The notes below the pieces were generated by a model. The model was not told where the DNA came from. It ran no database searches and saw only the letters and a program-made list of their open reading frames with translations. This document shows positions 1 to 35,652 of a stretch of DNA of 36,725 nt, in pieces (positions within the stretch are counted from its first letter, which is position 1; each line of letters starts with the position of its first letter). The translations under genes and the position numbers were made by a program. Origin of the DNA: Actinomycetota bacterium (GTDB lineage Bacteria > Actinomycetota > Nitriliruptoria > Nitriliruptorales > Nitriliruptoraceae); NCBI GenBank assembly GCA_019347575.1, contig JAHWKY010000040.1, positions 1 through 36,725 on the forward strand, in the 5' to 3' direction.

Positions 1-1243
1 TGGCTGTTCTGGTCGAGCGCTCCGGCTGCGGCCTGGAACGTCGGGTCCTCGAGGTCGCCACCGGCCTGGACGCCGGTGTAGACCGCGATCCCGGCGAGGT
101 AGACGTGCTCCTGCAACCCGGCGGTCAGCGTCGACCGCAGGTCGGCGCCAGCGCTGGCGGGGTCGCCAGAGATCTCATCGGGGAACTGGGTGGCGATGCC
201 GCCCGCCAAGATCGCGGCGGTGCCGGGTATGACGCCGGCGGCGGTCTTGAGCTTGTCGAAGGCGGTGCCGTCACCGGCCACGACCGCGTCGATCGTGTCG
301 AACACGGTGTCGACGTGGGGGACCAGCTCCATCGCGACGGCGTCTGCCGGCAGGTTGGGGTTGGCGCCTGCCAGGAACGCGCCGAAGTCGGTGCGGTACT
401 GGTCGAGCCCGTCTCGGGCCTGCTGCGCGGCAGCGTCGTCACCGGTGGCCTTCGCCAGCGTGTAGTCGACGAAGAAGTCGATGTGCTTGCGCCACAGGGG
501 CAGGAACGCGTCGCCAGCTTCCTGGCCGTAGACCGAGCCGATCGCGGCGGCGAGGTCCTGGCTGTTCTGGTCGAGCGCTCCGGCTGCGGCCTGGAACGTC
601 GGGTCCTCGAGGTCGCCACCGGCCTGGACGCCGGTGTAGACCGCGATCCCGGCGAGGTAGACGTGCTCCTGCAACCCGGCGGTCAGCGTCGACCGCAGGT
701 CGGCGCCAGCGCTGGCGGGGTCGCCAGAGATCTCATCGGGGAACTGGGTGGCGATGCCGCCCGCCAAGATCGCGGCGGTGCCGGGTATGACGCCGGCGGC
801 GGTCTTGAGCTTGTCGAAGGCGGTGCCGTCACCGGCCACGACCGCGTCGATCGTGTCGAACACGGTGTCGACGTGGGGGACCAGCTCCATCGCGACGGCG
901 TCTGCCGGCAGGTTGGGGTTGGCGCCTGCCAGGAACGCGCCGAAGTCGGTGCGGTACTGGTCGAGCCCGTCTCGGGCCTGCTGCGCGGCAGCGTCGTCAC
1001 CGGTGGCCTTCGCCAGCGTGTAGTCGACGAAGAAGTCGATGTGCTTGCGCCACAGGGGCAGGAACGCGTCGCCAGCTTCCTGGCCGTAGACCGAGCCGAT
1101 CGCGGCGGCGAGGTCCTGGCTGTTCTGGTCGAGCGCTCCGGCTGCGGCCTGGAACGTCGGGTCCTCGAGGTCGCCACCGGCCTGGACGCCGGTGTAGACC
1201 GCGATCCCGGCGAGGTAGACGTGCTCCTGCAACCCGGCGGTCA
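1..1243. repeat. 558-bp tandem direct repeat, two identical copies plus a partial third
   Basis: Bases 1-558 and 559-1116 are identical as far as I can read. Bases 1117-1243 repeat the first 127 bases again before divergence at 1244. The period is 558, which is 186 codons, so the repeat stays in frame in the minus-strand lipoprotein gene. Because synonymous sites are also identical, the duplication is very recent, homogenised by gene conversion, or an assembly artefact. The array continues past the left edge. Confidence 0.95.
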
Positions 1244-1505
1244 ACGTCGCACGCAGTTCCGAGGCGGGCGTGTCTGGACCGCCTTCTGCACCGGTGGCGC
1301 TGCCGGTGTCCTCGGTCAGCCCTTCGGATGGATCTTCGGTCTGGGTCGCGGTCTCGGCTGCGGGGGCGGCATCATCGGCGTCGTCGCCGTTGCCACCACA
1401 CGCGACGAGCGCGACGGACAAGGCGGTGGCAGCCGCGATGGACCTCACGCCGGAACGGCGGCGGGTCGATCGGGTCGGCTTCGACCGCGTCCTGAGTGAA
1501 CGCAT
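1..1505 (-). CDS. Repeat-containing lipoprotein, unknown function (C-terminus beyond left edge)
   Basis: This frame stays open from an ATG at 1505 to the window edge (about 501 codons), so the C-terminus is missing. An AGGAGA ribosome site lies at 1518-1513, 7 bases upstream of the start. The N-terminus has basic residues, a hydrophobic stretch and a lipobox LVAC with the lipidated Cys at residue 36, so the product is predicted to be anchored outside the membrane. A low-complexity Asp/Ala/Glu/Thr linker follows to about residue 82. Helical modules of 186 residues begin at residues 84, 270 and 456; the third is cut by the edge. Each module carries conserved His positions (H95 in QEHVY, H155 in WRKHIDFF, H211 in VPHVD), which suggests a metal-binding helical bundle, but I cannot name the family. 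The neighbouring divergent gene encodes a cupredoxin. Function is unknown; the reading frame and lipobox are clear. Confidence 0.8.
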   Translation of the reverse strand, partial: MRSLRTRSKPTRSTRRRSGVRSIAAATALSVALVACGGNGDDADDAAPAAETATQTEDPSEGLTEDTGSATGAEGGPDTPASELRATLTAGLQEHVYLAGIAVYTGVQAGGDLEDPTFQAAAGALDQNSQDLAAAIGSVYGQEAGDAFLPLWRKHIDFFVDYTLAKATGDDAAAQQARDGLDQYRTDFGAFLAGANPNLPADAVAMELVPHVDTVFDTIDAVVAGDGTAFDKLKTAAGVIPGTAAILAGGIATQFPDEISGDPASAGADLRSTLTAGLQEHVYLAGIAVYTGVQAGGDLEDPTFQAAAGALDQNSQDLAAAIGSVYGQEAGDAFLPLWRKHIDFFVDYTLAKATGDDAAAQQARDGLDQYRTDFGAFLAGANPNLPADAVAMELVPHVDTVFDTIDAVVAGDGTAFDKLKTAAGVIPGTAAILAGGIATQFPDEISGDPASAGADLRSTLTAGLQEHVYLAGIAVYTGVQAGGDLEDPTFQAAAGALDQNS

Positions 1506-1684: not shown

Positions 1685-2107
1685 TTGCGAACCACGCTCG
1701 CACTCGCACTGCTCGCCCTCCTCGCCGCTGCCTGCGGAGGGGGCGCTGAGACGGCGGACACCTCCGCGCCCGCGGCGGGCAACGCGAGCGATGACGTGAC
1801 CCGTTGCGCGTCGTTCGACCCCCACTGCGACGAGGAGCTGGCGCCGGACACCGTGGAGCTCCGCGGCATCCAGTTCAGCCCTCCGAGGCTCGAGGTGTCC
1901 GCGGGCACGACGGTCACGTTCGCCAACCTCGACCCGGTCCCACACACCGTGACGGCCGGAACCCCTGACGCACCGGTCGCGGCGACGTTCGACGAGGACC
2001 TCGCAGCCGACGAGACGGTCACGATCACCTTCGATGAGGCCGGCGAGGTCGCCTACTTCTGCGTGGTTCATCCGGGCGCTATGCAGGCGACCATCGTCGT
2101 GAGCTGA
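1685..2107 (+). CDS. Plastocyanin/amicyanin-like blue copper lipoprotein
   Basis: A predicted 140-residue exported lipoprotein with a single cupredoxin domain. The N-terminus is a short hydrophobic signal ending in a lipobox (LAAAC, Cys17), followed by an Ala/Asp/Thr-rich linker. The copper domain spans about residues 55-140. Type I copper ligands are visible as His87 (in VPHTV), then Cys126, His129 and Met133 in the CVVHPGAM loop, which is the usual Cys-x2-His-x3-Met spacing. The start is taken as TTG 1685 because it gives the full signal peptide and has AGGA at 1674-1677 upstream. Proteins of this type carry single electrons on the outer face of the membrane. It is divergent from the repeat lipoprotein and sits 23 bp before the UbiD gene. 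The partner is unknown; the family call is strong and the start is moderately certain. Confidence 0.85.
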   Translation: MRTTLALALLALLAAACGGGAETADTSAPAAGNASDDVTRCASFDPHCDEELAPDTVELRGIQFSPPRLEVSAGTTVTFANLDPVPHTVTAGTPDAPVAATFDEDLAADETVTITFDEAGEVAYFCVVHPGAMQATIVVS

Positions 2108-17740: not shown

Positions 17741-17906
17741 GGAGTGCTCAAGTAGCGAAGCGGTAGCACAGCAGGGAGTGCTCAAGTAGCGCAGCGGTAG
17801 CACAGCAGGGAGTGCTCAAGTAGCGAAGCGGTAGCACAGCAGGGAGTGCTCAAGTAGCGAAGCGGTAGCACAGCAGGGAGTGCTCAAGTAGCGAAGCGGT
17901 AGCACA
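17741..17906. repeat. Five tandem 34-bp repeats with imperfect dyad symmetry
   Basis: Units start at 17741, 17775, 17809, 17843 and 17877. Each has a 26-base core that begins GTGCTCAAGTAGC, has GAA in the middle (GCA in the second unit) and ends GCGGTAGCAC. Cores are separated by the 8-base spacer AGCAGGGA. The ends GTGCT and AGCAC are complementary. There are no unique spacers. The array fills the gap between the reductase gene and nuoA1, just upstream of the candidate nuo promoter. A related 36-bp version lies inside nuoC2. Confidence 0.95.
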
Positions 17907-17912
17907 GAGGGT

Positions 17913-17975: not shown

Positions 17976-18335
17976 GTGCTGAACGAGTACCTGCCGATCC
18001 TGCTGCTGTTCGGGCTGGCGCTGGCGTTCGGAGCGGGCTCGCTGCTGGTGTCCTCGATGGTCGGCCCCAACCGACCGAACCCCACGAAGCTGTCGGCGTA
18101 CGAGTGCGGCAACGAACCGCTGGCGGACGTGCGGGGCGTGCGCTTCTCGGTGAAGTTCTACCTCGTCGCGATGATGTTCCTGATCTTCGACGTCGAGACC
18201 GTCTTCCTCTACCCGTGGGCGGTCGTCTACCGCAGCTTGGGGTGGCAGGGTCTGGTCCAGATGTCGGTCTTCATCGGGATCCTCTTCGTCGCCTTCGCCT
18301 ACGAGATCGGGCGCGGAGGTCTGAAGTGGGACTAG
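17976..18335 (+). CDS. nuoA: NADH-quinone oxidoreductase subunit A (first complex I)
   Basis: A 119-residue membrane subunit with three hydrophobic helices. Family signature: [10 protein letters not shown] in the first loop (containing the conserved Cys), then [28 protein letters not shown] across helix 2. The loop between helices 1 and 2 helps form the quinone-site entrance of complex I. GTG 17976 has AGGAGGA 5 bases upstream. Its end overlaps nuoB by 10 bases, so translation is coupled. It is the first gene of a complete nuoA-N operon, with the same gene order as the operons of Streptomyces and other actinobacteria. Confidence 0.95.
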
Positions 18336-18814
18336 AGGAGAAGCTCCCCTCGGGGATCCTGCTGACGAACCTCGAGCGGTTCGTCAACTACTCGCGCTCC
18401 AAGTCGCTGTGGCCGGCCACCTTCGGACTCGCCTGCTGCGCCATCGAGATGATGGCAGCGGGCGCCGCGCACTACGACCTCGCGCGGTTCGGCATGGAGG
18501 TGTTCCGCGCCTCGCCACGTCAGGCCGACCTGATGATCGTGGCGGGCCGCGTCAGCCAGAAGATGGCGCCGGTGCTGCGTCGCATCTACGACCAGATGTC
18601 GGATCCCAAGTGGGTCCTGTCGATGGGGGTGTGCGCGACGTCGGGTGGGATGTTCAACAACTACGCCCTCGTCCAGGGGGTCGATCACATCGTGCCGGTG
18701 GACATGTACGTCTCGGGCTGCCCGCCCCGTCCCGAGATGCTCATGGACGGGATCCTGAAGCTGCACGCCAAGATCTCCGGTGAGACGTTCGCCGAGCAGG
18801 GGTCGCACGCATGA
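18326..18814 (+). CDS. nuoB: NADH-quinone oxidoreductase subunit B (first complex I)
   Basis: A 162-residue peripheral-arm subunit that holds cluster N2, the last iron-sulfur centre before menaquinone. The four ligands are visible as adjacent Cys37-Cys38 (GLACCAIE), Cys103 (GVCATSGG) and Cys132 (SGCPPRPE). GTG 18326 is chosen because it gives the usual short N-terminus and lies inside the last codons of nuoA; longer in-frame extension would overlap nuoA heavily. The gene overlaps nuoC by 4 bases (ATGA). The paralogue at 35145 differs in the third-ligand loop (GSCANCGG). Confidence 0.95.
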
Positions 18815-19404
18815 GGGACCTCGAGGCGATCGAGCGCGCGGTCCAGGAGCGCTTCCCCGATGTCGCCAGCGACATCGCTCGCGGCGAGCTCACACTGTTC
18901 GCCGCGCCCGAGCAGGTCGTGGACCTGCTCCGCTTCTGCCGCGACGACGCCGCGCTGGCGTGCGACTACCTCGCCGACCTCGGGGGCGTGCACTGGCCTG
19001 CCGGCGAGCACGTACTCGAGCGTCAGCCGTCGACGACCGGCTGGCCCGAGTACCGGGTGTCACGCGAGCGGGGCGTGGTCGAGATCAACTACATCCTCCG
19101 TTCGACCTCGCGCAACCACTGGTTCCGCGTGTCGGTCGCCACCGATGACGAGGACGCCCGGCTGCCGTCGGTCACGAGCTTGTGGGCGACCGCGGACTTC
19201 CTCGAGCGCGAGGCGTACGACTTCTTCGGCGTGAGGTTCGAGGGGCACCCGAACCTGCTTCGCATCCTGATGCCGGACGACTGGGTCGGCCACCCGCACC
19301 GCAAGGACTACCCGCTCGGCGGGGTCGACGTGACCTACCACAACGAGAAGTTCATCCCGCCGCCTGACGAGCGCGACCTACGGCGCGAGGTGGCGGACCG
19401 ATGA
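18811..19404 (+). CDS. nuoC: NADH-quinone oxidoreductase subunit C (first complex I)
   Basis: A 197-residue peripheral-arm subunit without cofactors that packs on NuoD. The conserved C-terminal signature is present: [19 protein letters not shown], then [16 protein letters not shown] and [14 protein letters not shown] 18811 overlaps the nuoB stop by 4 bases, and its own stop overlaps the nuoD ATG by 4 bases. Unlike the second NuoC at 35653, it has no long tail and no repeats. The N-terminal domain (residues 1-70) is less conserved, as is normal for the family. Confidence 0.94.
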
Positions 19405-20714
19405 GCACCGTCGAGCACGGCCGCACCGCTGCCAGTCCCGATTTCAGCGGCGATCTGTTCGTGACGGGGGCCGACTGGGAGACGGTCGAGGATGCGGTCG
19501 GCGACAACGTCATCACGGTGAACATGGGGCCGCAGCACCCCTCGACGCACGGGGTTCTACGCCTGATCCTGCAGCTCGAGGGCGAGACGGTCCTGTCGGT
19601 CCAGCCCATCATCGGCTACCTGCACACGGGCATCGAGAAGAACGCGGAGTTCCGCACGTGGGTCCAGGGCGTGACGTTCTTCACGCGCATGGACTACCTG
19701 GCGCCGCTGTTCAACGAGCTCGCCTACTGCCTGGCGGTCGAGCGGCTCCTCGGTATCGAGGCCCCCGAGCGGGCGCAGACCGTACGGGTGATCCTGACCG
19801 AGTTCAACCGCATCGCCAGCCACCTGGTCTGGCTCGCCACCGGAGGGATGGAGCTCGGCGCCATCTCGATGATGATCTACGGCTTCCGCGAGCGCGAGCG
19901 CATCCTCGACCTGTTCGAGTCGCAGACGGGCCTGCGGATGAACCACGCGTACATCCGCCCCGGGGGCTTGGCCGCGGACGTCACCGACGACTTCATCGAG
20001 CGCTGCGAGAGCCTGCTCCAGGTGCTGCCCGACAAGATGGGCGAGTACGAGGACCTCCTGCTCAAGAACCCCATCTGGCTCGAGCGCACGAAGGGCGTGG
20101 GGATCCTGACGACGGAGGACGCACGCAACTTCGGGGTCACGGGGCCGCTCGCCCGCGCCGCCGGGCTCGCGTTCGACCTGCGCAAGGCGCAGCCGTACTG
20201 CGGCATCGACCAGTTCGACTTCGACGTGCCGACCGAGTCGGCGGGCGACAGCTACGCGCGGTTCCTCGTGCGGCTCGAGGAGATGCGCCAGAGCCTGCGC
20301 ATCATCCGCCAGGCGCTCGACGTGCTGCCCGACGGCCCGACCATGGTCGCGGACCCGCACATCCGGTGGCCCGCGCAGCTCGCGCTCGGACCCGACGGCC
20401 TCGGCAACAGCCCCGAGTACATCCGCCACATCATGGGCGAGTCGATGGAGGCCCTCATCAACCACTTCAAGCTCGTCACCCAGGGCTTCACCGTTCCCGT
20501 CGGACAGGTCTACGAGGCGGTGGAGTCACCGCGAGGTGAGCTCGGCTACGCCGTGGTCAGTGACGGCACGAACCGCCCGTACCGGGTCCACGTCCGCGAC
20601 CCCTCGTTCGTCAACCTCCAGGCCACCGACCACATGGCGGGCGGTCACACCGTCTCCGACGTCATCGCGGTGGTCGCCAGCCTCGATCCTGTGATGGGCG
20701 GCGTCGACCGCTGA
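19401..20714 (+). CDS. nuoD: NADH-quinone oxidoreductase subunit D (first complex I)
   Basis: A 437-residue subunit related to the large subunit of [NiFe] hydrogenases; with NuoB it forms the menaquinone-binding cavity. The hallmark [16 protein letters not shown] begins near residue 37, followed by [14 protein letters not shown], the [11 protein letters not shown] segment and the C-terminal [28 protein letters not shown] 19401 is coupled to nuoC. The N-terminal 35 residues form a variable lead. The 32-base gap to nuoE contains a GGAGGG ribosome site. Confidence 0.95.
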
Positions 20715-20746
20715 CCGTCCCCGACCCCCACCGGAGGGCCTCCCAC

Positions 20747-21478
20747 GTGCCGCTGTCCGACGAGACGCTCCGAGTCGCCGACCGGCTCGTCGCGCGCTAC
20801 CCGCATTCGCGGTCGGCGCTGCTGCCGCTGCTGCACCTCGTGCAGGCGGACCACGGCTACGTCAGCGACGAGGGCATCGCGTTCTGCGCGCAGCGCCTCA
20901 ACCTCACCAAGGCGGAGGTCGGCGCGGTCGCGAGCTTCTACACCATGTTCAAGCGCGAGCCGGTCGGCGACTACCTGCTGTCGGTCTGCACCAACCCCGT
21001 GTGCAAGATCGCGGGCGGCCAGCGCATCTACGACGGCTACCTCGAGCAGCTCGGTGGCCACCATGACGAGGAGACGGGGGTAAGCGTCGAGCACGCCGAG
21101 TGCCTCGGCATCTGCGACGCCGCACCGGTCGTGCAGGTCAACTACGAGATGTACGGACCGGTGACGGACGACGAGGCGGACGAGCTCCTCGCGGCGTGCC
21201 GCAAGGGCGAACCCCCGGCCAGCAACTGGTCCGGTGACGTCCCCGGCACGTTCAAGCAGGTGGAGTGGGACCTCTCCGGCGCCGCCGACCCCGAGTCGCT
21301 GCAGGTCGGTTCGGAGGCGTCCGCTCGGTCCGCGGTGAACGCGTCCGTGGCCCCCTCGATCCGCAACGGCGAGACCGATCTGCCGGTCGTGTTCCCCGGT
21401 GTCGATCCCAGGGGCGTCGGGGGCGAGGTCGTCAGGCACCAGCTGGAGGGTGGTGGCGACCGTGGGAAGGGGGCCTGA
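20747..21478 (+). CDS. nuoE: NADH-quinone oxidoreductase subunit E (first complex I), with C-terminal extension
   Basis: A 243-residue subunit of the NADH-input module carrying the [2Fe-2S] cluster N1a. Ligands are Cys81-x4-Cys86 (CTNPVC) and Cys119-x3-Cys123 (CLGIC) in a thioredoxin-like domain, after an N-terminal helical part (ALLPLLHLVQADHGY). The domain ends near residue 160. The remaining 80 or so residues (Ser/Ala/Gly/Asp-rich) exceed the E. coli length and are probably flexible; tails of this kind occur in actinobacterial NuoE. GTG 20747 follows GGAGGG at 20732-20737. Together with NuoF and NuoG it shows that this complex is NADH-driven. Confidence 0.93.
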   Translation: MPLSDETLRVADRLVARYPHSRSALLPLLHLVQADHGYVSDEGIAFCAQRLNLTKAEVGAVASFYTMFKREPVGDYLLSVCTNPVCKIAGGQRIYDGYLEQLGGHHDEETGVSVEHAECLGICDAAPVVQVNYEMYGPVTDDEADELLAACRKGEPPASNWSGDVPGTFKQVEWDLSGAADPESLQVGSEASARSAVNASVAPSIRNGETDLPVVFPGVDPRGVGGEVVRHQLEGGGDRGKGA

Positions 21479-21479
21479 C

Positions 21480-22853
21480 GTGGGCGCGACCGGTGTCGTG
21501 GAGGCGCTGAGCAAGCGTTACGGACTCGACGACGGCCACACCCTCGACGCCTACAAGGGCTCGGGTGGGTACGCGGGTCTGCGACGAGCGCTCGAGCTCG
21601 CCCCGAACGAGATCATCGAGATCGTCAAGGACTCAGGCCTGCGCGGCCGAGGGGGGGCGGGGTTCCCCACCGGCATGAAGTGGGGCTTCGTCGCCCAGGA
21701 CACCGGCAAGCCGATCTACGTCGTGTGCAACGCGGACGAGGGCGAGCCCGGCACGTTCAAGGATCGCGAGCTGATGGAGCGAGACCCCCACGCTCTCGTC
21801 GAGGGCATGGTCGTCGCAGGCCTCGCGCTCAACTCCGAGCACGGGATGATCTACCTCCGCGGCGAGTTCGCACACGCCGGCCGGCGACTGCGTGCCGCCA
21901 TCGCCGAGGCCTACGAGGCCGGCTACCTCGGGGATGACGTCCTGGGCTCGGGCAAGCGCCACCACCTCACGATCCACCGCGGTGCCGGCGCCTACATCTG
22001 TGGCGAGGAGACGGCGTTGCTCGACTCGCTCGAGGGGCGTCGGGGTCAGCCTCGGCTGCGTCCTCCGTTCCCGGCGACCCACGGGCTGTACGGCTGCCCG
22101 ACCACGGTCAACAACGTCGAGACCATCGCCTCGGTGCCGCTCATCGTGCTGAACGGGGCCGACTGGTTCCGCCAGTGGGGAACCGAGAAGTCCCCCGGGT
22201 TCAAGCTCATGTGCATCGCGGGTGAGGTGGAGCGCCCCGGCAACTACGAGTTCGCGCTCGGCACGCCGGTGCGACAGATGCTCGAGCACGTCGGTGGGAT
22301 GAAGGATGGCCGCGAGGTGTCGTTCTGGCATCCGGGGGGCTCGTCGACCCCGTTCCTCACTGCCGAGCACCTCGACCTGCCGTACGCCTTCGAGGAGATC
22401 TCGGAGGCGGGTTCGTTGCTGGGCACCGGCGCGATCAGCTTCTTCTCGACCGAGTCGTGCATCGTCGATGTGACGCTGCGGTTCACCGAGTTCTACGAGC
22501 ACGAGTCGTGTGGCAAGTGCACCCCCTGCCGTGAAGGCACGTACTGGCTGAGCCAGATCCTGCGCCGGATCGAGGTCGGGCGCGGACGCGAGGACGATCT
22601 CGCCGTCCTCCAGGACGTGTGCGACAACATCTTCGGCCGCAGCTTCTGTGCGCTCGGCGATGGCGCGACCAGCCCCATCGTGTCGAGCCTGAAGTACTTC
22701 GCGGACGACTACGAGCTGCACATCGCCCAGGGACGCTGTCCGAAGGAGATCACCCCTCCCGACCGCTCCATCCCGATGCTCGAGCCTGTCGGTCTGATCT
22801 CACCCCCCAGGCCGACTACGTCGGCCCCTCCCCCCTCAAGGGGGAAGGCATGA
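21480..22853 (+). CDS. nuoF: NADH-quinone oxidoreductase subunit F (first complex I), NADH/FMN site
   Basis: A 457-residue flavoprotein that oxidises NADH. The FMN/NADH-binding region shows GLRGRGGAGFPTGMKW and CNADEGEPGTFKDR; the glycine-rich ICGEETALLDSLEG and RPPFPA segments follow. Cluster N3 ligands are Cys344, Cys347 and Cys350 (CGKCTPC) plus Cys390 (SFCALGDG). GTG 21480 starts one base after the nuoE stop and has GGAAGGGGG 6 bases upstream; in-frame starts within nuoE are less likely. A short Pro/Ser-rich tail ends the protein, encoded where two RNA hairpins precede nuoG. The stop overlaps the nuoG ATG. Confidence 0.95.
   Translation: MGATGVVEALSKRYGLDDGHTLDAYKGSGGYAGLRRALELAPNEIIEIVKDSGLRGRGGAGFPTGMKWGFVAQDTGKPIYVVCNADEGEPGTFKDRELMERDPHALVEGMVVAGLALNSEHGMIYLRGEFAHAGRRLRAAIAEAYEAGYLGDDVLGSGKRHHLTIHRGAGAYICGEETALLDSLEGRRGQPRLRPPFPATHGLYGCPTTVNNVETIASVPLIVLNGADWFRQWGTEKSPGFKLMCIAGEVERPGNYEFALGTPVRQMLEHVGGMKDGREVSFWHPGGSSTPFLTAEHLDLPYAFEEISEAGSLLGTGAISFFSTESCIVDVTLRFTEFYEHESCGKCTPCREGTYWLSQILRRIEVGRGREDDLAVLQDVCDNIFGRSFCALGDGATSPIVSSLKYFADDYELHIAQGRCPKEITPPDRSIPMLEPVGLISPPRPTTSAPPPSRGKA
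22810..22844 (+). promoter_or_regulatory. Two tandem hairpins covering the nuoG ribosome site
   Basis: GGCCGAC-TAC-GTCGGCC (22810-22826, a perfect 7-bp stem) is followed by CCCCC-TCAA-GGGGG (22831-22844). The second right arm is the G-rich ribosome-binding region of nuoG, whose ATG is at 22850. Ribosomes finishing nuoF would melt both, so nuoG translation may depend on nuoF translation. Confidence 0.45.
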
Positions 22854-25285
22854 CTGTCGGGACGGTCACCCTTACGATCGACGACCGCGAGATCACCGTG
22901 CCCAAGGGCACCCTGGTGATCCGGGCCGCCGAACAGCTCGGCATCATCATCCCGAGGTTCTGCGACCACCCCCTGCTCGATCCGCTCGGGGCGTGCCGCC
23001 AGTGCATCGTGGACGTCGAGGGCCAGCGCAAGCCGATGACGGCGTGCACGACCCAGGCCACGGACGGCATGGTCGTACGGACCCAGATGACGTCGGACGT
23101 CGCCGCCACCGCGCAGCGCGGGCAGCTCGAGTTCCTGCTCATCAACCATCCGCTCGACTGTCCCATGTGCGACAAGGGCGGCGAGTGCCCGCTGCAGGAC
23201 CAGGCGCTCCTGCACGGCCCCGGCGAGTCGCGCTTCGTCGACCAGAAGCGCAGGTACGCCAAGCCGGTCGCCGTGTCGGCACAGGTGCTGCTCGATCGGG
23301 AGCGCTGCGTGCTCTGCGCACGGTGCACGCGGTTCAGCAACGAGATCGCCGGCGATCCGTTCATCGAGCTGTTCGAGCGCGGCGCGCTCGAACAGGTCGC
23401 CATCTACGAGGACGAGCCCTACGTCAGCTACTTCTCCGGCAACGTCATCCAGATCTGTCCCGTCGGAGCGCTGACATCGGCTGCGTACCGCTTCCGTGCG
23501 CGGCCGTTCGACCTGCGCTCCTCGCCGAGCGTCTGCGGGCTGTGCTCCGCCGGATGCAACCTCACGGTGCAATCGCGACGCGGTGACATCCAGCGCCAGC
23601 TCGCGCGCACCAACATGGCCGTCAACGAGATGTGGAACTGCGACAAGGGCCGCTTCGGGTTCCGCCTCCTCGACTCCGACGCCCGGCTGCGGGAGCCGGC
23701 CATCCGCAAGGAGGGCGACCTCGTCGCGGTGTCGTGGTCCGAGGCGCTGACCGCCGTCGCGGATGCCGTGCGCCGTGCCGACGAGACCGGCCCCGGACGG
23801 GTCGCCGTTCTGACCGGCTCGCGCCTCGCTGACGAGGACGCCTACGCGGCGTCGAAGTACGTGCGCACCGTGCTCGGCACCGACGACGTCGACTTCCGCA
23901 CGACGCCGGCCGGTCCCGACGAGGACGCGGCCCTGGCGGCCGTTCTGAGCCGCCCCACCGCGACCTATGCGGAGGTCGAGGCCGCACCCGCGACGATCGT
24001 GGTCGGTCTCGACCCGGAGGAGGAGGTCCCGATCCTCCACCTGCGTCTCCGCAAGGCGTGGCGCACGCACCAGAGCAAGATCGTGCCCATCGGAGCGCGG
24101 TCCGGTTCGCTCACCCGCTACGCCTGGCGCGTCCTGCCGACCGCCCCGTCGGCCGAGCTCGGTGCCATGGCCGCGCTGGCGCGGGCCCTCGGCGTGGCCA
24201 ACCTCGCCGACGCGGCGGTGTCGGCCGGCTACAAGCACCCCCACCTCGACGATGTCGCAGCGGCCTTCCGTGAGGCCGGTCACGACGCAGTCATCCTCGT
24301 CGGTGAGCGTGGGGCGCGGTCTCCCGGGATCCTGGCCGCGGCCGTCCGACTGGCTGACCACCTCGGTTGCAAGCTGGCCTGGGTGCCCCGCAGGGCGGGT
24401 GCCCGCGGGGCGCTCGCGGCGGGACTCGCTCCCGGCTTCCTGCCCGGCGGACGGCGCTCGGACGACGAGGCGGACCGTACTGCCGTGTCGCACGTGTGGG
24501 GAGCGCTGCCCGAGGCACCGGGCCGCGGACTCCAGCCGATCCTCGAGGCTGCCGCTGCCGGTGACATCGACGTCCTCCACCTCATCGGCATCGATCTCGT
24601 CCGCGATAGCGGTGATCCCGACCTCGTGCGGCGCGCCCTCGATCGGGTGGCGACGGTCGTGGTCCAGGACCTGGCGACGAACGCGACCACCCCGGCCGCG
24701 GACATCCTGCTGCCGGTCACGGCGACCCAGGAGCGGGCGGGCACGTTCACCAACTGGGAGGGGCGCAGCCAGCAGTTCCGGGCCGTCATCGACGGACCGT
24801 CACTGTGCCAGGGCGACTGGGAGGTGCTGGTGCAGCTCGCCGCCGTCCAGGGGCGCGACCTCGGCTTCCACGACCTCGACGGACTCCGCGCTGAACAGCA
24901 CCGACTCGGGGTGCGGTCGGGCGATCCGCGTCCGGTCCCGGACCCTGTGTCGCCCGCCGGTGACGGGGCGCCCGCCGAGGGCTTCGTCGTGCTGAGCTAC
25001 CCGACGCTGCTCGACCGCGGCACGATGCTGACCGGCGCGACCGATCTTCTCGCGGCCGCCCCCCCGGCGACGATCGGACTCAACCCCGAGGACGCGCAGC
25101 GACTCGACATCGAAGCCGGGACGCTCGTCACGGTGTCTTCGGGTGAGGAGAGCGTGACCCTGGCGGCCGTGCTCGAGCCGGGGCTCATGCCGGGTGTGGT
25201 GTTCGTGCCTGCGAACAGCGCGGAGACGTCGGGGCGTGCGCTGGCCTCCCCCGCGCAGGTCGCGCCAGCGGAGGTGCCCGCGTGA
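22850..25285 (+). CDS. nuoG: NADH-quinone oxidoreductase subunit G (first complex I)
   Basis: An 811-residue peripheral-arm subunit. Residues 1-75 form the [2Fe-2S] domain N1b with Cys38, Cys49, Cys52 and Cys66. The His-x3-Cys-x2-Cys-x5-Cys motif of N5 (HPLDCPMCDKGGEC) and the N4 ligands (CVLCARC and ICPVGAL) follow. A further Cys set, CGLCSAGCNL with CDKGRFGF, matches the extra N7 cluster known in some bacterial enzymes. The remainder is a molybdopterin-oxidoreductase-like domain without its cofactor. ATG 22850 overlaps the nuoF stop and gives the normal N-terminus; longer in-frame extension lies within nuoF. The gene is coupled to nuoH by a 4-base overlap. Confidence 0.95.
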   Translation: MTVGTVTLTIDDREITVPKGTLVIRAAEQLGIIIPRFCDHPLLDPLGACRQCIVDVEGQRKPMTACTTQATDGMVVRTQMTSDVAATAQRGQLEFLLINHPLDCPMCDKGGECPLQDQALLHGPGESRFVDQKRRYAKPVAVSAQVLLDRERCVLCARCTRFSNEIAGDPFIELFERGALEQVAIYEDEPYVSYFSGNVIQICPVGALTSAAYRFRARPFDLRSSPSVCGLCSAGCNLTVQSRRGDIQRQLARTNMAVNEMWNCDKGRFGFRLLDSDARLREPAIRKEGDLVAVSWSEALTAVADAVRRADETGPGRVAVLTGSRLADEDAYAASKYVRTVLGTDDVDFRTTPAGPDEDAALAAVLSRPTATYAEVEAAPATIVVGLDPEEEVPILHLRLRKAWRTHQSKIVPIGARSGSLTRYAWRVLPTAPSAELGAMAALARALGVANLADAAVSAGYKHPHLDDVAAAFREAGHDAVILVGERGARSPGILAAAVRLADHLGCKLAWVPRRAGARGALAAGLAPGFLPGGRRSDDEADRTAVSHVWGALPEAPGRGLQPILEAAAAGDIDVLHLIGIDLVRDSGDPDLVRRALDRVATVVVQDLATNATTPAADILLPVTATQERAGTFTNWEGRSQQFRAVIDGPSLCQGDWEVLVQLAAVQGRDLGFHDLDGLRAEQHRLGVRSGDPRPVPDPVSPAGDGAPAEGFVVLSYPTLLDRGTMLTGATDLLAAAPPATIGLNPEDAQRLDIEAGTLVTVSSGEESVTLAAVLEPGLMPGVVFVPANSAETSGRALASPAQVAPAEVPA

Positions 25286-26481
25286 GCTTGCCGATCTGGG
25301 TGCACGTGTTCCGAGTCGTCGTCGGCTTCGCGCTGTTCCTGGTGTCGACCGCACTGCTCATCTGGGCCGAGCGTCGTGTCGTCGCACGTATGCAGTCGCG
25401 CATCGGCCCCAACCGCGTCGGACCGTTCGGGATCATGCAGACCCTCGTCGACGGGGTGAAGTTGTTCTTCAAGGAGGACGTCACCCCCTCGATGGTCGAC
25501 CGACCCATCTACGTGCTGGCACCGCTGCTGTCGGTCGTCGTCGCGTTCCTGTCGTTCGCGATCATCCCCTACGGGGGAGAGGTATCGCTGTTCGGTGAGA
25601 CGTTCGCGCTGCAGATCGCGGACCTCAACGTCGGGCTGCTGTGGTTCCTCGCGATGGGGTCGATCAACGTCTACTCGGTCGTCCTCGCGGGCTGGTCGTC
25701 GCGTTCGCCCTACCCCCTGCTCGGCGGTGTGCGCTCGAGTGCCCAGATGGTCAGCTACGAGATCGCCCAGGGTCTGGCCGTGGCGAGCGTGTTCGTCTAC
25801 GCCGGGACCCTCACGGTCTCCGAGATCGTCGCCATCCAGGCCAACGAACCTGGCCTCATCGCTGGCGTTCCGAACTGGTTCGTCATCCCGCTGTTCCCGG
25901 CCTTCCTGATCTTCGCGGTCGCGATGGTCGCCGAGACCCAGCGGCCGCCGTTCGACCTGCCCGAAGCCGAGGAAGAGCTCGTCGCCGGGTTCCACACCGA
26001 GTACGGCGGGCTCCGCTTCGCGATGTTCTTCCTCGCCGAGTTCATGAACGTGATCACGGTCTCGGCGATCCTGGTCACGATGTTCTTCGGCGGACCCGCC
26101 GGTCCCAACCCGCTCGACGGCACACCCGCCCTCGCGTGGATCCTTCCGGTCGTGTGGTTCCTCGCGAAGACCTGGGCGGTCGTGTTCGTGTTCATCCTGC
26201 TCCGGGCGGCACTGCCACGGTTCAAGTACGACCGGCTCATGGACATCGGCTGGAAGTGGCTGCTGCCGCTAGGGCTGGTCTGGGTGCTCGCGACCGCGTT
26301 CATGGTCCTGGTCAACGAGCAGCTCTCCGACGACGCGCGCTTCGCCATCGCCGGCGGTGGCATCGCCGCGGCCGTGATCCTCTACCTGGTGGCGCCGCTG
26401 TTCACGAGCGCTCCGATCACGACCGACACCACGCCACCGAGCGAGGAGTTCGGCGACGAACTCGAGGAGGTCTCCACCTGA
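25282..26481 (+). CDS. nuoH: NADH-quinone oxidoreductase subunit H (first complex I)
   Basis: A 399-residue membrane subunit with about eight to nine helices that joins the two arms and lines the quinone chamber. Conserved loops are [20 protein letters not shown] plus KLFFKED after helix 1, [15 protein letters not shown], and the [20 protein letters not shown] loop with the acidic E-channel residues, followed by [20 protein letters not shown] 25282 overlaps the nuoG stop by 4 bases. An acidic tail of about 25 residues ([20 protein letters not shown]) extends beyond the last helix. Confidence 0.95.
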
Positions 26482-27233
26482 TGCCTACGGTCGTCAGCTC
26501 ACTGATCGCGCTCGTCGCCGTCGCCGCACTGCTGTGGCTGTTCCTCAGCCGCACCGTCCTCGGGCGCGGGCTCAGCGTGCCCCTGCGGACCATGTTCACC
26601 CGCCCCGTCACGACCCAGTACCCCGAGGTCAAGCGTGAGCCGCAGCCGCGCTACCACGGCCGCCACCAGCTCAACCGCTACTCCGACGGCCTCGAGAAGT
26701 GCATCGGCTGCGAGCTGTGCGCGTGGGCGTGCCCCGCGGACGCCATCTACGTGCAGGGAGCGGACAACACCGCCGAGAAGCGCTACTCGCCGGGTGAGCG
26801 GTACGCCATCGACTACCAGATCAACTACAACCGCTGCATATTCTGCGGCCTGTGCATCGAGGCCTGTCCGACGCGTGCGCTCACCATGCTGCACGACTAC
26901 GAGATCGCGAGCGACTCACGCCTCGAGCTCATCTACACCAAGGACCGCTTGCTGGCGCCTCTCGCCGACGGCACCGACCCGCCGCCCCACCGTGACCGCG
27001 ACGTGCGCGAGCGCGGGATCAACTACTACGGCGGCCTGGCGACGACGCCGCCCAACCTCCACGGTGGGGAGTTCGCGCCGGCGACCGCCGCCCCCTCGTC
27101 GCGCGCTGGCGATGTCGTCCCGGCCGGACCGTGGGGTGGCGGGGGCGACCGCGCGGACCACGGCGAGCTGCCGGAACCGGGGACGCATCCGCCGGATGCG
27201 GCCACCGTCGGCGAGCCCGACGAGGACCGGTGA
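26481..27233 (+). CDS. nuoI: NADH-quinone oxidoreductase subunit I (first complex I)
   Basis: A 250-residue ferredoxin-like subunit with two [4Fe-4S] clusters, N6a and N6b. Motifs are Cys74-x2-Cys77-x2-Cys80-x3-Cys84 ([11 protein letters not shown]) and Cys119-x2-Cys122-x2-Cys125-x3-Cys129 ([11 protein letters not shown]). An N-terminal hydrophobic stretch (residues 5-22) may sit at the membrane. The core ends near residue 180; about 65 Pro/Gly/Ala-rich residues follow, longer than in E. coli and probably disordered. ATG 26481 shares its A with the nuoH stop TGA, and its stop shares the last base with the nuoJ ATG. Confidence 0.94.
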
Positions 27234-27970
27234 TGGATCTGCTCGTACTCGCTCAGGACGTCGGCCAGGACGTCGTCGAGGTCGCGGGGCAGGACCGGAT
27301 GGCCGAGACCATCCTGTTCTGGGTCCTCGCAGTCATCGGTATGGGCTCCGGCATCGGCATGGTCGTCATGCGCAACATCGTCCACGGTGCGCTGCTGCTG
27401 GTCCTGAACTTCCTCGCGATCGCGGGTCTGTTCCTCGTGCTCCAGTCCGGCTTCCTATCGATCGTGCAGGTGATCGTCTACGCCGGGGCGATCATGGTCC
27501 TGTTCCTGTTCGTGATCATGCTCCTCGGTGTCGACCGTGACGATGCGCTCATCGACACCACGCGCCTGCACCGGGTCGGGGCCGTCTTGGTCGGCCTCGC
27601 GGTCGTCGGGGCGCTCGTGTTCAGCCTGGTGGGCACATTCACGTCGGCGGGCTCCCGGTGTGGCGACCAGGTGGACACCGAGGTGCTGGATCAGCGCACC
27701 GACGCCATCCGGTGCGAGGGACTCGACCGCGCGTTGGCCGAGCAGGACGGCAGCGTGGCCGTCCTCGCGAACCGCCTGTTCGGCCGTTACACCTTCCCCT
27801 TCGAGGCGTCCGCTCTGCTGCTGACGGTCGCGACGATCGGGGCGATCGTCCTCGGCCGCCGCCACGATGACCCCGAGGACCTGATGGGGGACGGTGTGAT
27901 CGATCCTCCGCTCCCCGATCGCGAGACCGAGTCCGCCTCGGCGGTCGACGACGAGCCGGGGGTCGACTGA
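27233..27970 (+). CDS. nuoJ: NADH-quinone oxidoreductase subunit J (first complex I)
   Basis: A 245-residue membrane subunit with five predicted helices. The key third helix is clear (SIVQVIVYAGAIMVLFLFVI), the region that bends during turnover. The soluble loop between helices 4 and 5 is long and has two Cys residues (SRCGDQVDTE and AIRCEGLD), which may form a disulfide if exposed; that is inference. ATG 27233 overlaps the nuoI stop by one base; a later ATG at 27299 is possible but would remove a plausible N-terminal lead. An acidic tail ends the protein. Confidence 0.93.
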   Translation: MDLLVLAQDVGQDVVEVAGQDRMAETILFWVLAVIGMGSGIGMVVMRNIVHGALLLVLNFLAIAGLFLVLQSGFLSIVQVIVYAGAIMVLFLFVIMLLGVDRDDALIDTTRLHRVGAVLVGLAVVGALVFSLVGTFTSAGSRCGDQVDTEVLDQRTDAIRCEGLDRALAEQDGSVAVLANRLFGRYTFPFEASALLLTVATIGAIVLGRRHDDPEDLMGDGVIDPPLPDRETESASAVDDEPGVD

Positions 27971-28269
27971 TGCCCATCGGCTACTACTACGCGATCGCCG
28001 CGATCATGTTCTGCACGGGGCTGGTCGGGGTCCTCCTGCGGCGCAACGCCATCGTGCTGTTCATGTGCGTCGAGCTGATGCTCAACTCGGTGAACCTGAC
28101 GCTCGCCGCGGCCGCGCGTCAGTGGGGCAGCGCCGACGGTCAGGTCTTCGTGTTCTTCGTCATCGTCGTCGCTGCCGCCGAGGTCGTGGTCGGACTCGGG
28201 TTGATCGTCAACATCTTCTTCCGGCGCGGCACCCTCGACGTCGATGCACCGCGACTGTTGAGGGGCTGA
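27970..28269 (+). CDS. nuoK: NADH-quinone oxidoreductase subunit K (first complex I)
   Basis: A 99-residue membrane subunit, the standard length, with three helices. The two buried glutamates needed for proton transfer are visible: Glu35 (FMCVELMLNSVNL) and Glu71 (AAAEVVVGLG). It is homologous to MrpC antiporter subunits. ATG 27970 shares its A with the nuoJ stop, and nuoL follows after 3 bases. Confidence 0.95.
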   Translation: MPIGYYYAIAAIMFCTGLVGVLLRRNAIVLFMCVELMLNSVNLTLAAAARQWGSADGQVFVFFVIVVAAAEVVVGLGLIVNIFFRRGTLDVDAPRLLRG

Positions 28270-28272
28270 GCG

Positions 28273-30222
28273 ATGACGTCCGTGCTGCTCGCCACCGAGG
28301 CGTCCGACGCGGGGTTCACCGCCGTCGAGGCCAGCGGTGCGGCGGCCGTCGCGTGGCTGATCCCCCTCCTGCCCCTGATCGGCTTCGTCATCCTCGTGTT
28401 CAACCCGCGGCGCGTACGGGAGCCCACCGCGGGGTACGTCGCGACCGCGGCCGCGGGGCTGAGCTTCGCCGTATCCGTGTTGGTGTTCGTCCAGCTGCTC
28501 GGTCAGGACGCCGAGCAGCGCACGATCATCACCGAGCTGTTCACGTGGTTCGACGTCGGTGGCTTCCACGTCGATGTCGCCTTGCTGCTCGACCCGCTGT
28601 CGGCGGTGATGCTCCTCGTGATCACGGGTGTCGGCTCGCTGATCCACCTCTATTCGATCGGCTACATGCACGGCGACGAGCGGTTCACCACCTACTTCGC
28701 GTACCTGAACCTGTTCCTGTTCTCCATGCTCGTCCTGGTCCTCGGCAGTGACCTGCTCGTGCTGTTCGTTGGCTGGGAGCTCGTCGGTCTGTGCAGCTAC
28801 CTGCTCATCGGGTTCTGGTTCGAACGCTCGGAGTACGCCAGCGCCGCGAAGAAGGCGTTCATCGTCAACCGTGTCGGCGACGTGTCGTTCATGATCGGGA
28901 TGTTCCTGATCTTCAACACGTTCGGGACCCTGGCCTTCGCCGGCGTGCTGCCTGAGGCGGGCGCGATCGCCGGGACCGCCACCGCGACCGCGATCGGGCT
29001 GCTGCTGCTGGGAGGCGCAACCGGCAAGTCGGCGCAGATCCCCCTGTACGTCTGGCTCCCCGATGCCATGGCGGGTCCGACCCCGGTGTCGGCCCTGATC
29101 CACGCCGCGACGATGGTCACCGCCGGGGTCTACATGATCGCTCGGATGTCGGCGATCTACCTCGGCTCCACTACGGCGCTCGATGTGGTCGCGTGGATCG
29201 GCGTGGCAACCGCGCTGCTGGCAGCGCTCATCGCGGTTCGGCAGGACGACATCAAGAAGATCCTGGCCTACTCGACCGTCAGCCAGCTCGGCTTCATGTT
29301 CATCGGGGTCGGCGTCGGGGCGTTCGCCATCGGCATCTTCCACCTCGTGACGCACGCCTTCTTCAAGGCGCTGCTCTTCCTCGCCGCCGGGTCGGTGATG
29401 CACGCCCTCGCCAACGAGCAGGACGTATGGCGGATGGGTGGGCTGCGCAAGCACATGCCCATCACGTTCGCCACCTCGGCGATCGCCTGGGCGGCCATCA
29501 GCGGCATCCCACCCTTCGCCGGGTTCTGGTCGAAGGACCAGATCCTCACCGAGGCCTACGAGACCGGGCACGAGGCGATATGGGCCCTCGGTGTCGCAGC
29601 CGCCATCCTCACCGCCTTCTACATGACCCGCTGGCTCATCCTCGTCTTCTTCGGCCAGGAACGGTTCGGTCGCGACCTGCATCCCCACGAATCGCCCTCG
29701 ACCATGACCGTGCCGCTCATCGTCCTCGCCGTCCTCTCCGCGGTCGGTGGCGTCGCGTTGAACCCCACCCTCCAGGGCCCGTTGGCCCGCTGGCTCGAGA
29801 CGGCTGTCGGCGCGTTCCACCCCGAGGAGGGCATGGACCTGCTCTTCGGCCTGAGCGAGCCGATCCTGATCGCGCTGTCCGTGGTCGCGGCGGCGATCGG
29901 GATCGGTGCCGCGTACCTGCTGTACTTCCGGGACGGGCCGGAACGCTTGACGGGACCGGTGGCGCGTGTGCTCGAGCAGCGGTTCTACGTGGACCAGTTC
30001 TACGAGCTGATCTTCGTCAAGGGCGGGGGGTTGCTCAGCCGCGGCGTGGCCTTCGTGGACCGCTGGGTGATCGACGGTGCCGTCAACGGCGCCGCGACCG
30101 CCACACGGTGGTCGGCCGGGGTCACCCGGCGGGTCCAGTCCGGGCTGGTGCGGGCGTACGTCGGACTGCTCGCCCTCGGGACGGTCGCCGTCCTCGCCGT
30201 CTTCCTCGTGCGGGCGGGGTGA
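28273..30222 (+). CDS. nuoL: NADH-quinone oxidoreductase subunit L (first complex I)
   Basis: A 649-residue antiporter-like proton-pumping subunit with about 14 to 16 helices plus the lateral helix. The conserved TM5 glutamate is Glu169 (FVGWELVGLCSYLLIGFW). Other landmarks are GKSAQIPLYVWLPDAMAGPT with the TM7 Lys, AATMVTAGVYMIARM, and DIKKILAYSTVSQLGFMF with the Lys of the broken helix. ISGIPPFAGFWSKDQIL follows. The C-terminal part includes the long amphipathic helix region and a final TM anchor. ATG 28273 follows nuoK by 3 bases. Confidence 0.95.
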   Translation: MTSVLLATEASDAGFTAVEASGAAAVAWLIPLLPLIGFVILVFNPRRVREPTAGYVATAAAGLSFAVSVLVFVQLLGQDAEQRTIITELFTWFDVGGFHVDVALLLDPLSAVMLLVITGVGSLIHLYSIGYMHGDERFTTYFAYLNLFLFSMLVLVLGSDLLVLFVGWELVGLCSYLLIGFWFERSEYASAAKKAFIVNRVGDVSFMIGMFLIFNTFGTLAFAGVLPEAGAIAGTATATAIGLLLLGGATGKSAQIPLYVWLPDAMAGPTPVSALIHAATMVTAGVYMIARMSAIYLGSTTALDVVAWIGVATALLAALIAVRQDDIKKILAYSTVSQLGFMFIGVGVGAFAIGIFHLVTHAFFKALLFLAAGSVMHALANEQDVWRMGGLRKHMPITFATSAIAWAAISGIPPFAGFWSKDQILTEAYETGHEAIWALGVAAAILTAFYMTRWLILVFFGQERFGRDLHPHESPSTMTVPLIVLAVLSAVGGVALNPTLQGPLARWLETAVGAFHPEEGMDLLFGLSEPILIALSVVAAAIGIGAAYLLYFRDGPERLTGPVARVLEQRFYVDQFYELIFVKGGGLLSRGVAFVDRWVIDGAVNGAATATRWSAGVTRRVQSGLVRAYVGLLALGTVAVLAVFLVRAG

Positions 30223-30225
30223 CGG

Positions 30226-31734
30226 ATGGGGCTGCTGAGTCTGACCATGTTGCTGCCCCTGGCGGGGGCGGTCGCGCTCGCCTTCGTCGACGGGGAGGAT
30301 CGCCGGAACGTCCGCAACATCGCGCTGGGAGCCTCGCTGCTGACGTTCGTCGCGAGCCTCGTCGTCCTGGCGCGCTTCGACACCACCGACGCTGGCTTCC
30401 AGCTGCAGGAGCGGATCGACTGGCTCCCCGCGCTCGGGGCCAGCTACCACCTGGGGGTCGACGGGATCGCACTGGTGCTGATCCTCCTCACGAGCTTCTT
30501 CACTCCGGTCGTGATCGCCGCGCACTGGCAGCACACCGACCGGCTCCGCGGCTTCCTCGCCGCGTTCCTGGTGCTCGAGACCGCGGTCATCGGGGTCTTC
30601 CTGAGCCTCGACCTGCTGCTGTTCTACGTCTTCTGGGAGGTCATGCTCGTCCCGATGTACCTGCTCATCGGGATGTGGGGCTACGAGAACCGACGCTACG
30701 CAGCCATCAAGTTCTTCCTCTACACCCTGCTCGGTGGGCTGCTCATGCTCGTCGGGATCCTCGTCGTGTACGCGCAGGCCGGAGGCTCGTTCGCCTACGA
30801 CAGCGTCCTCGACGTCGCCCTCGATCCCGGGACGCAGCGGTGGTTGTTCTGGGCCTTCATGGCCTCCTTCGCGGTGAAGATCCCCCTCTTCCCGGTCCAC
30901 ACGTGGCTGCCGGACGCGCACACCGAGGCACCCACGGGCGGCTCGGTGATCCTCGCCGCGGTGCTCCTGAAGATGGGTGGCTTCGGGATGCTGCGCTACG
31001 CGCTCCCGCTCTTCCCTGACGCGACGCACGAAGCCGCGCCGTGGCTGCTGGCCTTGTCCGTGGTCGGGATCCTGTACGGCGCCGTCATGGCGCTGGTCCA
31101 GACCGACCTGAAGCGCCTGGTGGCCTACTCCTCGGTGTCGCACATGGGCTTCGTCGTGCTCGGGATCTTCGCGCTCACCACGACGGCCACGTCCGCCGGG
31201 GTCGTGCAGATGATCAACCACGGCCTGTCGACCGGCGCGCTGTTCCTGCTGGTGGGCTTCCTCTACGAACGGCGCCACACCCGCCAGATCGCAGCGTTCG
31301 GCGGCTTGGCCAAGCGGGTCCCGGTGTACGCGGGCCTGTTCCTCGTCGTGGCGCTGTCCTCGCTCGCCCTACCCGGCCTCAACGGCTTCGTCGGTGAGTT
31401 CCCCATCCTGCTCGGGACGTTCCAGGTCTCACGTTGGGCCGGTGTGCTGGCCTCGTTCGGTGCCGTGCTCGCCGCCCTGTACCTGTTGTGGGCCTACCAA
31501 CGCGTCTTCCACGGGCCCCTCGAAGGCGCCGACAACGAGAACACCACCGACCTCAAGCCGCGCGAGATCGCGATCCTGGCACCCATCCTCGCCTTGATCG
31601 TCGTCATCGGGATCTACCCCAAGCCCCTCTACGACACCGTGGGCCCGTCCGTCGAGCGGACCCTGTCGCAGGCCGGATCGGCGGAGGTGGCGGCCGCTGC
31701 CGTCGAAGTCGCACCGGCGACGGTGGAGGAGTAG
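30226..31734 (+). CDS. nuoM: NADH-quinone oxidoreductase subunit M (first complex I)
   Basis: A 502-residue antiporter-like proton-pumping subunit with 14 predicted helices. Glu138 in YVFWEVMLVPMYLLIGMWG is the conserved TM5 acid. KIPLFPVHTWLPDAHTEAPT carries the TM7 Lys, and DLKRLVAYSSVSHMGFVVLG the Lys/His region of TM8. ALPGLNGFVGEFPIL matches the NuoM family and separates it from NuoL and NuoN. ATG 30226 follows nuoL by 3 bases. The C-terminus ends in an Ala/Glu/Val-rich tail. Confidence 0.95.
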   Translation: MGLLSLTMLLPLAGAVALAFVDGEDRRNVRNIALGASLLTFVASLVVLARFDTTDAGFQLQERIDWLPALGASYHLGVDGIALVLILLTSFFTPVVIAAHWQHTDRLRGFLAAFLVLETAVIGVFLSLDLLLFYVFWEVMLVPMYLLIGMWGYENRRYAAIKFFLYTLLGGLLMLVGILVVYAQAGGSFAYDSVLDVALDPGTQRWLFWAFMASFAVKIPLFPVHTWLPDAHTEAPTGGSVILAAVLLKMGGFGMLRYALPLFPDATHEAAPWLLALSVVGILYGAVMALVQTDLKRLVAYSSVSHMGFVVLGIFALTTTATSAGVVQMINHGLSTGALFLLVGFLYERRHTRQIAAFGGLAKRVPVYAGLFLVVALSSLALPGLNGFVGEFPILLGTFQVSRWAGVLASFGAVLAALYLLWAYQRVFHGPLEGADNENTTDLKPREIAILAPILALIVVIGIYPKPLYDTVGPSVERTLSQAGSAEVAAAAVEVAPATVEE

Positions 31735-34770: not shown

Positions 34771-35157
34771 GTGGGCTTCTACGAGCAGTGGGGCACCTTC
34801 GCGGTGCTCACGATCGTGGGCGTGGGTCTGTACGCCCTCATCATGCTGCTCAACCGGGTCATGCGCCCCGCCTTCCCTTCGCCGGCGAAGCTGTCCACCT
34901 ACGAGTGCGGCGTCGATCCGGTCGGGGCGGGCTGGAGCCAGATGAACATCCGCTACTACGTGTTCGCGTTCCTGTTCGTGATCTTCGACGTCGAGAGCGT
35001 CTTCATCTTCCCGTGGGCGGTCCTGCTTGACGGCCTCGGTGACGACAGCGCGATATCGGCCACGTTCGCGCTCGTCGAGATGTTCATCTTCATCGCCGTC
35101 CTGGCGGTGGGCATCGTGTACGCGTGGAGGAAGAAGGTCCTGACGTGGGACTCGTAG
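34771..35157 (+). CDS. nuoA: NADH-quinone oxidoreductase subunit A (second complex I)
   Basis: A 128-residue three-helix membrane subunit, paralogous to the product at 17976. The signature loop reads [20 protein letters not shown] with the conserved Cys, then [27 protein letters not shown] 34771 has GAGGAGGA 6 bases upstream. It overlaps nuoB2 by 13 bases, nearly the same arrangement as in the first operon. It opens a second nuo gene set that continues beyond the window. Streptomyces also has a second set downstream of the main operon, so this layout has a precedent. Confidence 0.93.
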
Positions 35158-35651
35158 ACCAGGTCGAGATGCCCAAGCCGGTGAAGTTCCTGTTCAACTG
35201 GGGCAGGAAGTACTCACTGTGGGTGTTCAACTTCGGACTCGCTTGCTGTGCCATCGAGTTCATCGCGGCCTCGACGTCACGTCACGACTTCATCCGCCTG
35301 GGTGTGATCCCGTTCGCGCACGGCCCGCGCCAGGCCGACCTGATGGTCGTGTCGGGGACCCTCACAGACAAGATGGCCCCGGCTCTGAAGCGGCTCTACG
35401 ACGAGATGCCCGAGCCCAAGTACGTGATCAGCTTCGGGTCCTGTGCCAACTGTGGTGGGCCGTACTGGGACAGCTACTCCGTCACGAAGGGTGTCGACCA
35501 GATCGTCCCCGTCGACGTCTACGTGCCCGGGTGCCCGCCCCGTCCGGAGGCGCTGCTCGAGGGCATCATCCGGCTCCAGGACCGCATCGGTGGCGAGTCG
35601 CTGAAGGAGCGCCTGTCGACGCGCCGTGAGCCGATCGTGGTGGAGGGCTGA
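35145..35651 (+). CDS. nuoB: NADH-quinone oxidoreductase subunit B (second complex I)
   Basis: A 168-residue subunit with the N2 cluster ligands Cys34-Cys35 (GLACCAIE), Cys100 (GSCANCGG) and Cys130 (PGCPPRPE). An additional Cys103 in the third-ligand loop is absent from the first NuoB. GTG 35145 lies in the last codons of nuoA2, mirroring operon 1; ATG 35169 (MPKPVKFLF) is an alternative that drops 8 residues. The gene ends one base before the nuoC2 start. All residues needed for cluster N2 are present, so the second enzyme is expected to be redox-active. Confidence 0.93.
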
Positions 35652-35652
35652 G

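Follow-up and report, generated by a model that had tools for sequence, protein, structure and literature searches.

The question raised by this locus, which comes from an uncultured actinobacterium, is how many copies of a repeated domain its gene contains. The window, meaning the whole stretch of 36,725 bp that was analysed, is an entire contig (C40), and its position 1 is a contig end lying inside the repeat. The assembly to which it belongs comprises 120 contigs and 4.89 Mb, with a completeness of 98.8% and a contamination of 4.6%. A base-by-base comparison of each position i with position i+558 gave an exact period of 558 nt over window positions 1-1243: the two were identical at every base for i=1 to 685, with the first mismatch at 686 versus 1244. 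The exact tract (1-1243, minus strand) thus amounts to 2.23 units, or 2 x 558 + 127 nt, and a 685-nt exact match at a single spacing is far beyond chance. The array was absent from the output of Tandem Repeats Finder, in which the longest period was 500 (the finder's limit being 500 nt), and was listed by a separate repeat search of the window. The first-pass annotation had reported an identical, in-frame 558-bp tandem repeat with a period of 186 codons, and this was reproduced exactly at 1-1243. Its two full copies were likewise recovered, whereas its third copy beginning at each end of the tract proved to be the same additional 127 nt counted twice.

The repeat unit corresponds to 186 codons on the minus strand and is open throughout. 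The coding sequence (3-1505, minus strand) starts with an ATG at 1505, displays the 5' part of the gene (501 aa) and runs off the left contig edge. The unit closest to the N-terminus was located at 684-1241 (minus strand) by self-comparison and translation and the second, identical unit at 126-683 (minus strand) by self-comparison; of a third unit only the start is displayed (3-125, minus strand), and this was ascribed to a second trip of the assembler round a loop. The linker joining one unit to the next is present and in frame in the displayed ORF. As read from the translation, the first 36 residues resemble a signal peptide ending in the lipobox-like motif LVAC (residues 33-36; 1398-1409, minus strand), which we take to be the lipobox of a lipoprotein signal peptide with Cys36 as the candidate cysteine, followed by an acidic linker and tandem domains of ~180 aa that are predicted to be all-helical. 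The earlier description of the product as a surface lipoprotein is supported to this extent, the signal peptide pointing on sequence grounds to a putative exported lipoprotein. The same annotation alone had suggested phase-like length variation. Phase variation proper, in which a change in copy number would turn expression on or off, is extremely improbable, as 558 = 3 x 186 and no displayed unit interrupts the ORF; recombination between these in-frame copies would alter the length of the protein without breaking the frame and would leave the expression state unchanged.

The significance of the displayed copy number was assessed from the contig ends of the assembly. A total of 163 ends were collected and the 129 N-free ends were used, leaving out 34 ends from 17 contigs reading as N; 39 of the 129 (C1-C10, C12-C20 and the start of C29) were examined over 400 nt only, a length at which long-period tandems would escape. 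Among the 129 ends, three pairs had a common terminal suffix of at least 40 nt, and each of these suffixes was exactly 127 nt long. Two ends, those of C40 and C19, carried a tandem suffix longer than 127 nt, and when contig-end tracts were compared with a whole number of loops plus this word, they resolved into 2 x 558 + 127 and 2 x 78 + 127 nt, respectively. We conclude that 127 nt is the assembly word, although two observations run against this reading: the ends of C1 and C26 dovetail by 50 nt, which does not fit a 127-nt word, and the C9 end is self-recurring with a suffix of 68 nt and a period of 65, which is not the loop form. In the window the word at the loop exit occupies 1117-1243 and is identical to 1-127, the contig start, and to 559-685. 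Because the exact identity exceeds the 127-nt word, the assembly graph holds a 558-nt loop, and the tract of C40 is explained if, as we assume, the assembler circles an unresolved graph loop twice and then stops; the 2.23 copies and the contig break would both follow. Since the tract equals two loops plus the word at a contig end, it is the assembly that set the number of copies displayed: the repeat junction exists, and the count beyond two carries no information. The same holds wherever copy number is read at a contig end from a tract of two loops plus the assembly word.

The reading that we consider likely is a lipoprotein of two domains, in which intragenic recombination recently homogenised the halves and the repeat was extended further in assembly. 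The true gene would contain two copies that agree in DNA along most of their length because one was recently overwritten with the other, by gene conversion or by unequal crossing-over, and its other end would have been left behind on contig C29. Recent expansion, gene conversion and assembly error had been listed in the first-pass annotation as separate explanations of the identity; here both homogenisation of the halves and assembly play a part, the displayed count being the product of the latter. The principal alternative, which we regard as unlikely but worth retaining, is a real array of at least three identical domains, their number differing between cells so as to give a length-variable surface protein. 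The exact identity over 558 nt favours unequal crossing-over and hence counts towards such an array, while the displayed count, being the loop form found at both such contig ends, counts against it.

In the remainder of the genome, the other strong match to the array is the last 159 nt of C29 (62,438 bp), weak matches being present also on C11, C1 and C38. The last 99 nt of C29 are identical to window positions 238-336, a stretch that recurs at 796-894; the C29 sequence differs at 237 and 228 and departs leftwards from 177. Read on the minus strand, C29:62264-62437 encodes a gene C-terminus, ...GTAAILAGGIATQFPDQFNG and then a stop (after QFPDQFNG). From these sequence matches we take C29 and C40 to be the two ends of one gene, for which the joined product would measure 261 aa with one copy, 447 aa with two and 633 aa with three; the gene probably contains exactly two copies and encodes 447 aa. 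The stretch common to C29 and the array is 99 nt and not 127 nt, which goes against this reading and is presumably explained by an earlier rung of an iterative-k ladder. Onward from the gene, the order on C29 is a DUF6923-matching protein, a DUF4383 protein, an ECF sigma factor, an RskA-type anti-sigma factor and ResB, of which ResB is encoded on the plus strand and the anti-sigma factor, sigma factor and DUF4383 protein on the minus strand. At two related loci (L118 and L119), ResB, anti-sigma, sigma and DUF4383 genes lie beside the gene in the order and on the strands seen on C29. Against the join, the cupredoxin gene of L118 and L119 sits between DUF4383 and the gene, whereas in the C29/C40 locus a DUF6923-type membrane protein occupies this place and the cupredoxin lies on the other side.

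The C29 copy also bears on the opposite alternative, namely a one-domain gene whose repeat is a pure artefact of chimeric joining or strain mixture. The assembly is 4.6% contaminated and a strain mixture is therefore possible, which counts against the preferred reading; however, the linker between copies is present and in frame, and the copy at the C29 end has its own changes (window positions 228 and 237 and a different tail). Because of these two observations a single module looks unlikely, and we regard the pure artefact as very improbable. This is an ordinary repeat gene that really contains at least two almost identical halves.

Domain number was then compared among relatives. The domain is present in 27 of 100 other genomes searched, which ranged from the same family out to the same phylum; the 60 relatives listed include no genome of the same genus. 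Across 22 two-domain proteins encoded at the loci recovered, the halves were 26-88% identical in protein and 47-88% identical in DNA. A scan of named genome contigs yielded 153 related stretches; the analysis covered the best 80 (79 loci), and a domain was counted as full when it covered at least 120 model positions. Among the 74 uncut loci from these best 80 of 153 stretches, 52 encode two full domains, 20 encode one (including L153, which looks frame-broken), two encode four and none encodes three in tandem; an architecture with two copies is the most frequent in the relatives analysed. This variation in domain number lends weight to a real array and the lack of three full tandem domains takes weight from it, while the 20 single-domain loci, with the same reservation about L153, are the family evidence in favour of the pure artefact. 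Several two-domain genes carry an additional half domain. In L029-L034, L175, L184 and L199 the gene opens with a half domain and closes with a truncated one, the pattern that a shift of the repeat frame would leave.

In five of the 79 loci (best 80 of 153) the contig stops within the gene. Two of these, L140 (halves 95% identical, 174 nt left) and L141 (93%, 153 nt left), have terminal suffixes of 125 and 117 nt, respectively, each of which is found again one unit further back, so that the break in these assemblies seems to have had the same cause, in this same gene, as in C40. In the other three, L144, L146 and L214, no recurring suffix accompanies the cut. Intact two-domain genes with long exact repeats were also found, with a 347-nt exact repeat in L139 (halves 92% identical in nucleotide sequence) and one of 393 nt in L170 (91%). 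Near-identical tandem halves thus recur in this family, and both the two broken assemblies with recurring ends and the two intact genes argue against the pure artefact. Complete nucleotide identity between halves was found neither in the 22 nor in the 52 two-domain relatives, the maximum for a whole gene being 92%, which is a point against recently homogenised halves. Where the tandem copies are nearly the same, as they can be in this family, a genome assembled from short reads can break within the gene or show a wrong copy number.

The history of the halves was followed in two single-domain trees. In the first, 5 of 22 two-domain relatives had their two halves as sisters with starred support, and in the second 9 of 21 did; the second tree comprised the window and 34 of the 79 loci, most of them taken from the head of the list, with two four-domain proteins left uncounted. 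The window copies grouped with L139, L141 and L144 in the second tree (97/97), and their placement was weak (56/93) in the first, from which these three loci were absent. Many relatives show separate histories for their halves, for example L159/L163 and L175/L199 in the second tree, contrary to the preferred reading, and because in some of them first halves group with first halves (L159 with L163), homogenisation is episodic. The identical copies seen in the window could have come from conversion, from unequal crossing-over or from a fresh duplication of a gene with one domain; we infer recombination as the cause.

The gene was compared with known systems of tandem repeats. Periscope Proteins are described as carrying folded, highly identical domains in tandem at the cell surface; their high DNA identity is proposed to permit intragenic recombination and a change in domain number, and short reads fail to resolve their tandem domains (PMC8201768, PMC9704523). 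The natural variation of such genes described there also speaks for a real array at this locus. The window gene is similar in having tandem, highly similar folded domains (two DNA-identical units, with a domain model of pLDDT 95.6), and differs in that it probably has only two domains, with a putative N-terminal lipid anchor and a predicted helical bundle and without a separate tip domain: the joined two-copy model consists of signal peptide, linker and two domains only, with no projected functional domain of the Periscope type. The gene may be likened to this group, and membership is not claimed. The Legionella intragenic tandem repeats are reported to lie within coding genes and were compared between several strains (PMC2639597), whereas the window gene is known from one strain. 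Concerted evolution in prokaryotes, by which copies within a genome are more alike than orthologues, is reported for paralogous genes (PMC6053082), whereas the present case concerns the halves of one gene. A narrow literature search found no paper on collapsed repeats in MAGs.

A two-domain relative lies on a Planococcus lenghuensis plasmid (L138, 5314-7437), has a PETG-plus-hydrophobic tail and is encoded directly beside a class F sortase gene. This protein, named 'copper amine oxidase', has two copies of a domain of the same family (41% identity over one domain) and an N-terminal signal-like sequence, as in the window gene, but differs in its PETG tail followed by a hydrophobic stretch and in the adjacent sortase gene, which suggests sortase anchoring in L138 as opposed to lipid anchoring in the window. 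The name is without Pfam support for the domain: no copper amine oxidase family was matched at E <= 0.01 in 97 domain sequences, and the Planococcus protein likewise had no such match at E <= 0.001. A literature search found no paper joining class F sortase with copper amine oxidase.

A single domain was predicted to be an all-helical bundle (pLDDT 95.6, pTM 0.89), and H14, H74 and H130 are invariant across 97 aligned domain sequences. The window ORF gave no match over the Pfam or NCBIfam cut-offs, a PDB sequence search with the domain gave no convincing match and Foldseek with the domain model gave none at E <= 0.001; VIA-align Z scores were at most 8.0, which for helical bundles falls inside the noise range given for the tool, and a known fold is neither claimed nor excluded. 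The missing family or fold match is no proof of a new fold. The domain family is widespread, with no name found for it in Pfam, NCBIfam or PDB sequence searches, and its genes in Actinomycetota, Chloroflexota, Bacillota and others often have cupredoxins and ECF sigma/anti-sigma pairs nearby. In the window a divergent cupredoxin gene (1685-2107, plus strand; PF00127 and PF13473 in Pfam) adjoins the lipoprotein gene. A cupredoxin relative was found in 15 of 20 relatives' loci (stretches of 4 to 12 kb; 20 of the 27 genomes fetched) and in 49 of the 79 named loci (up to 2.5 kb on each side; best 80 of 153), in which sigma relatives (40/79), anti-sigma relatives (38/79) and class F sortase relatives (15/79) also occur. 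PF00127 matches number 2 to 20 per genome (21 genomes), so that by a rough estimate chance cupredoxin neighbours would amount to a few percent at most. This neighbourhood would be consistent with a surface copper- or redox-linked role of the lipoprotein. A broader proposal, that the exported three-histidine bundle is a surface copper- or redox-linked protein, with copies subject to repeated homogenisation and a number of sites that changes in the population, as an environmental, non-adhesin counterpart of the Periscope Proteins, is put forward as speculation that we doubt.

Further repeats were observed in the same genome. A dispersed, imperfect palindrome of 26-31 nt, GTGCTCAAGYAGC..GGTAGCAC, occurs at window positions 17741-17911 and 36445-36595, often in short tandem arrays with a spacing of about 31-40 nt; exact-pattern matches in the genome numbered 74 forward and 49 reverse, with none in 40 relatives and none in a backward control. 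One of the window arrays lies between ORFs and the other extends the C-terminus of an ORF that we take to encode a NuoC-like protein. The regions 17976-31734 and 34771-36621 are presumably two complex I (nuo) clusters, each starting with NuoA/B/C-like ORFs. The right end of C19 (L115) carries a 78-nt tandem with an end tract of exactly 2 x 78 + 127 nt, the same assembler form as at C40.
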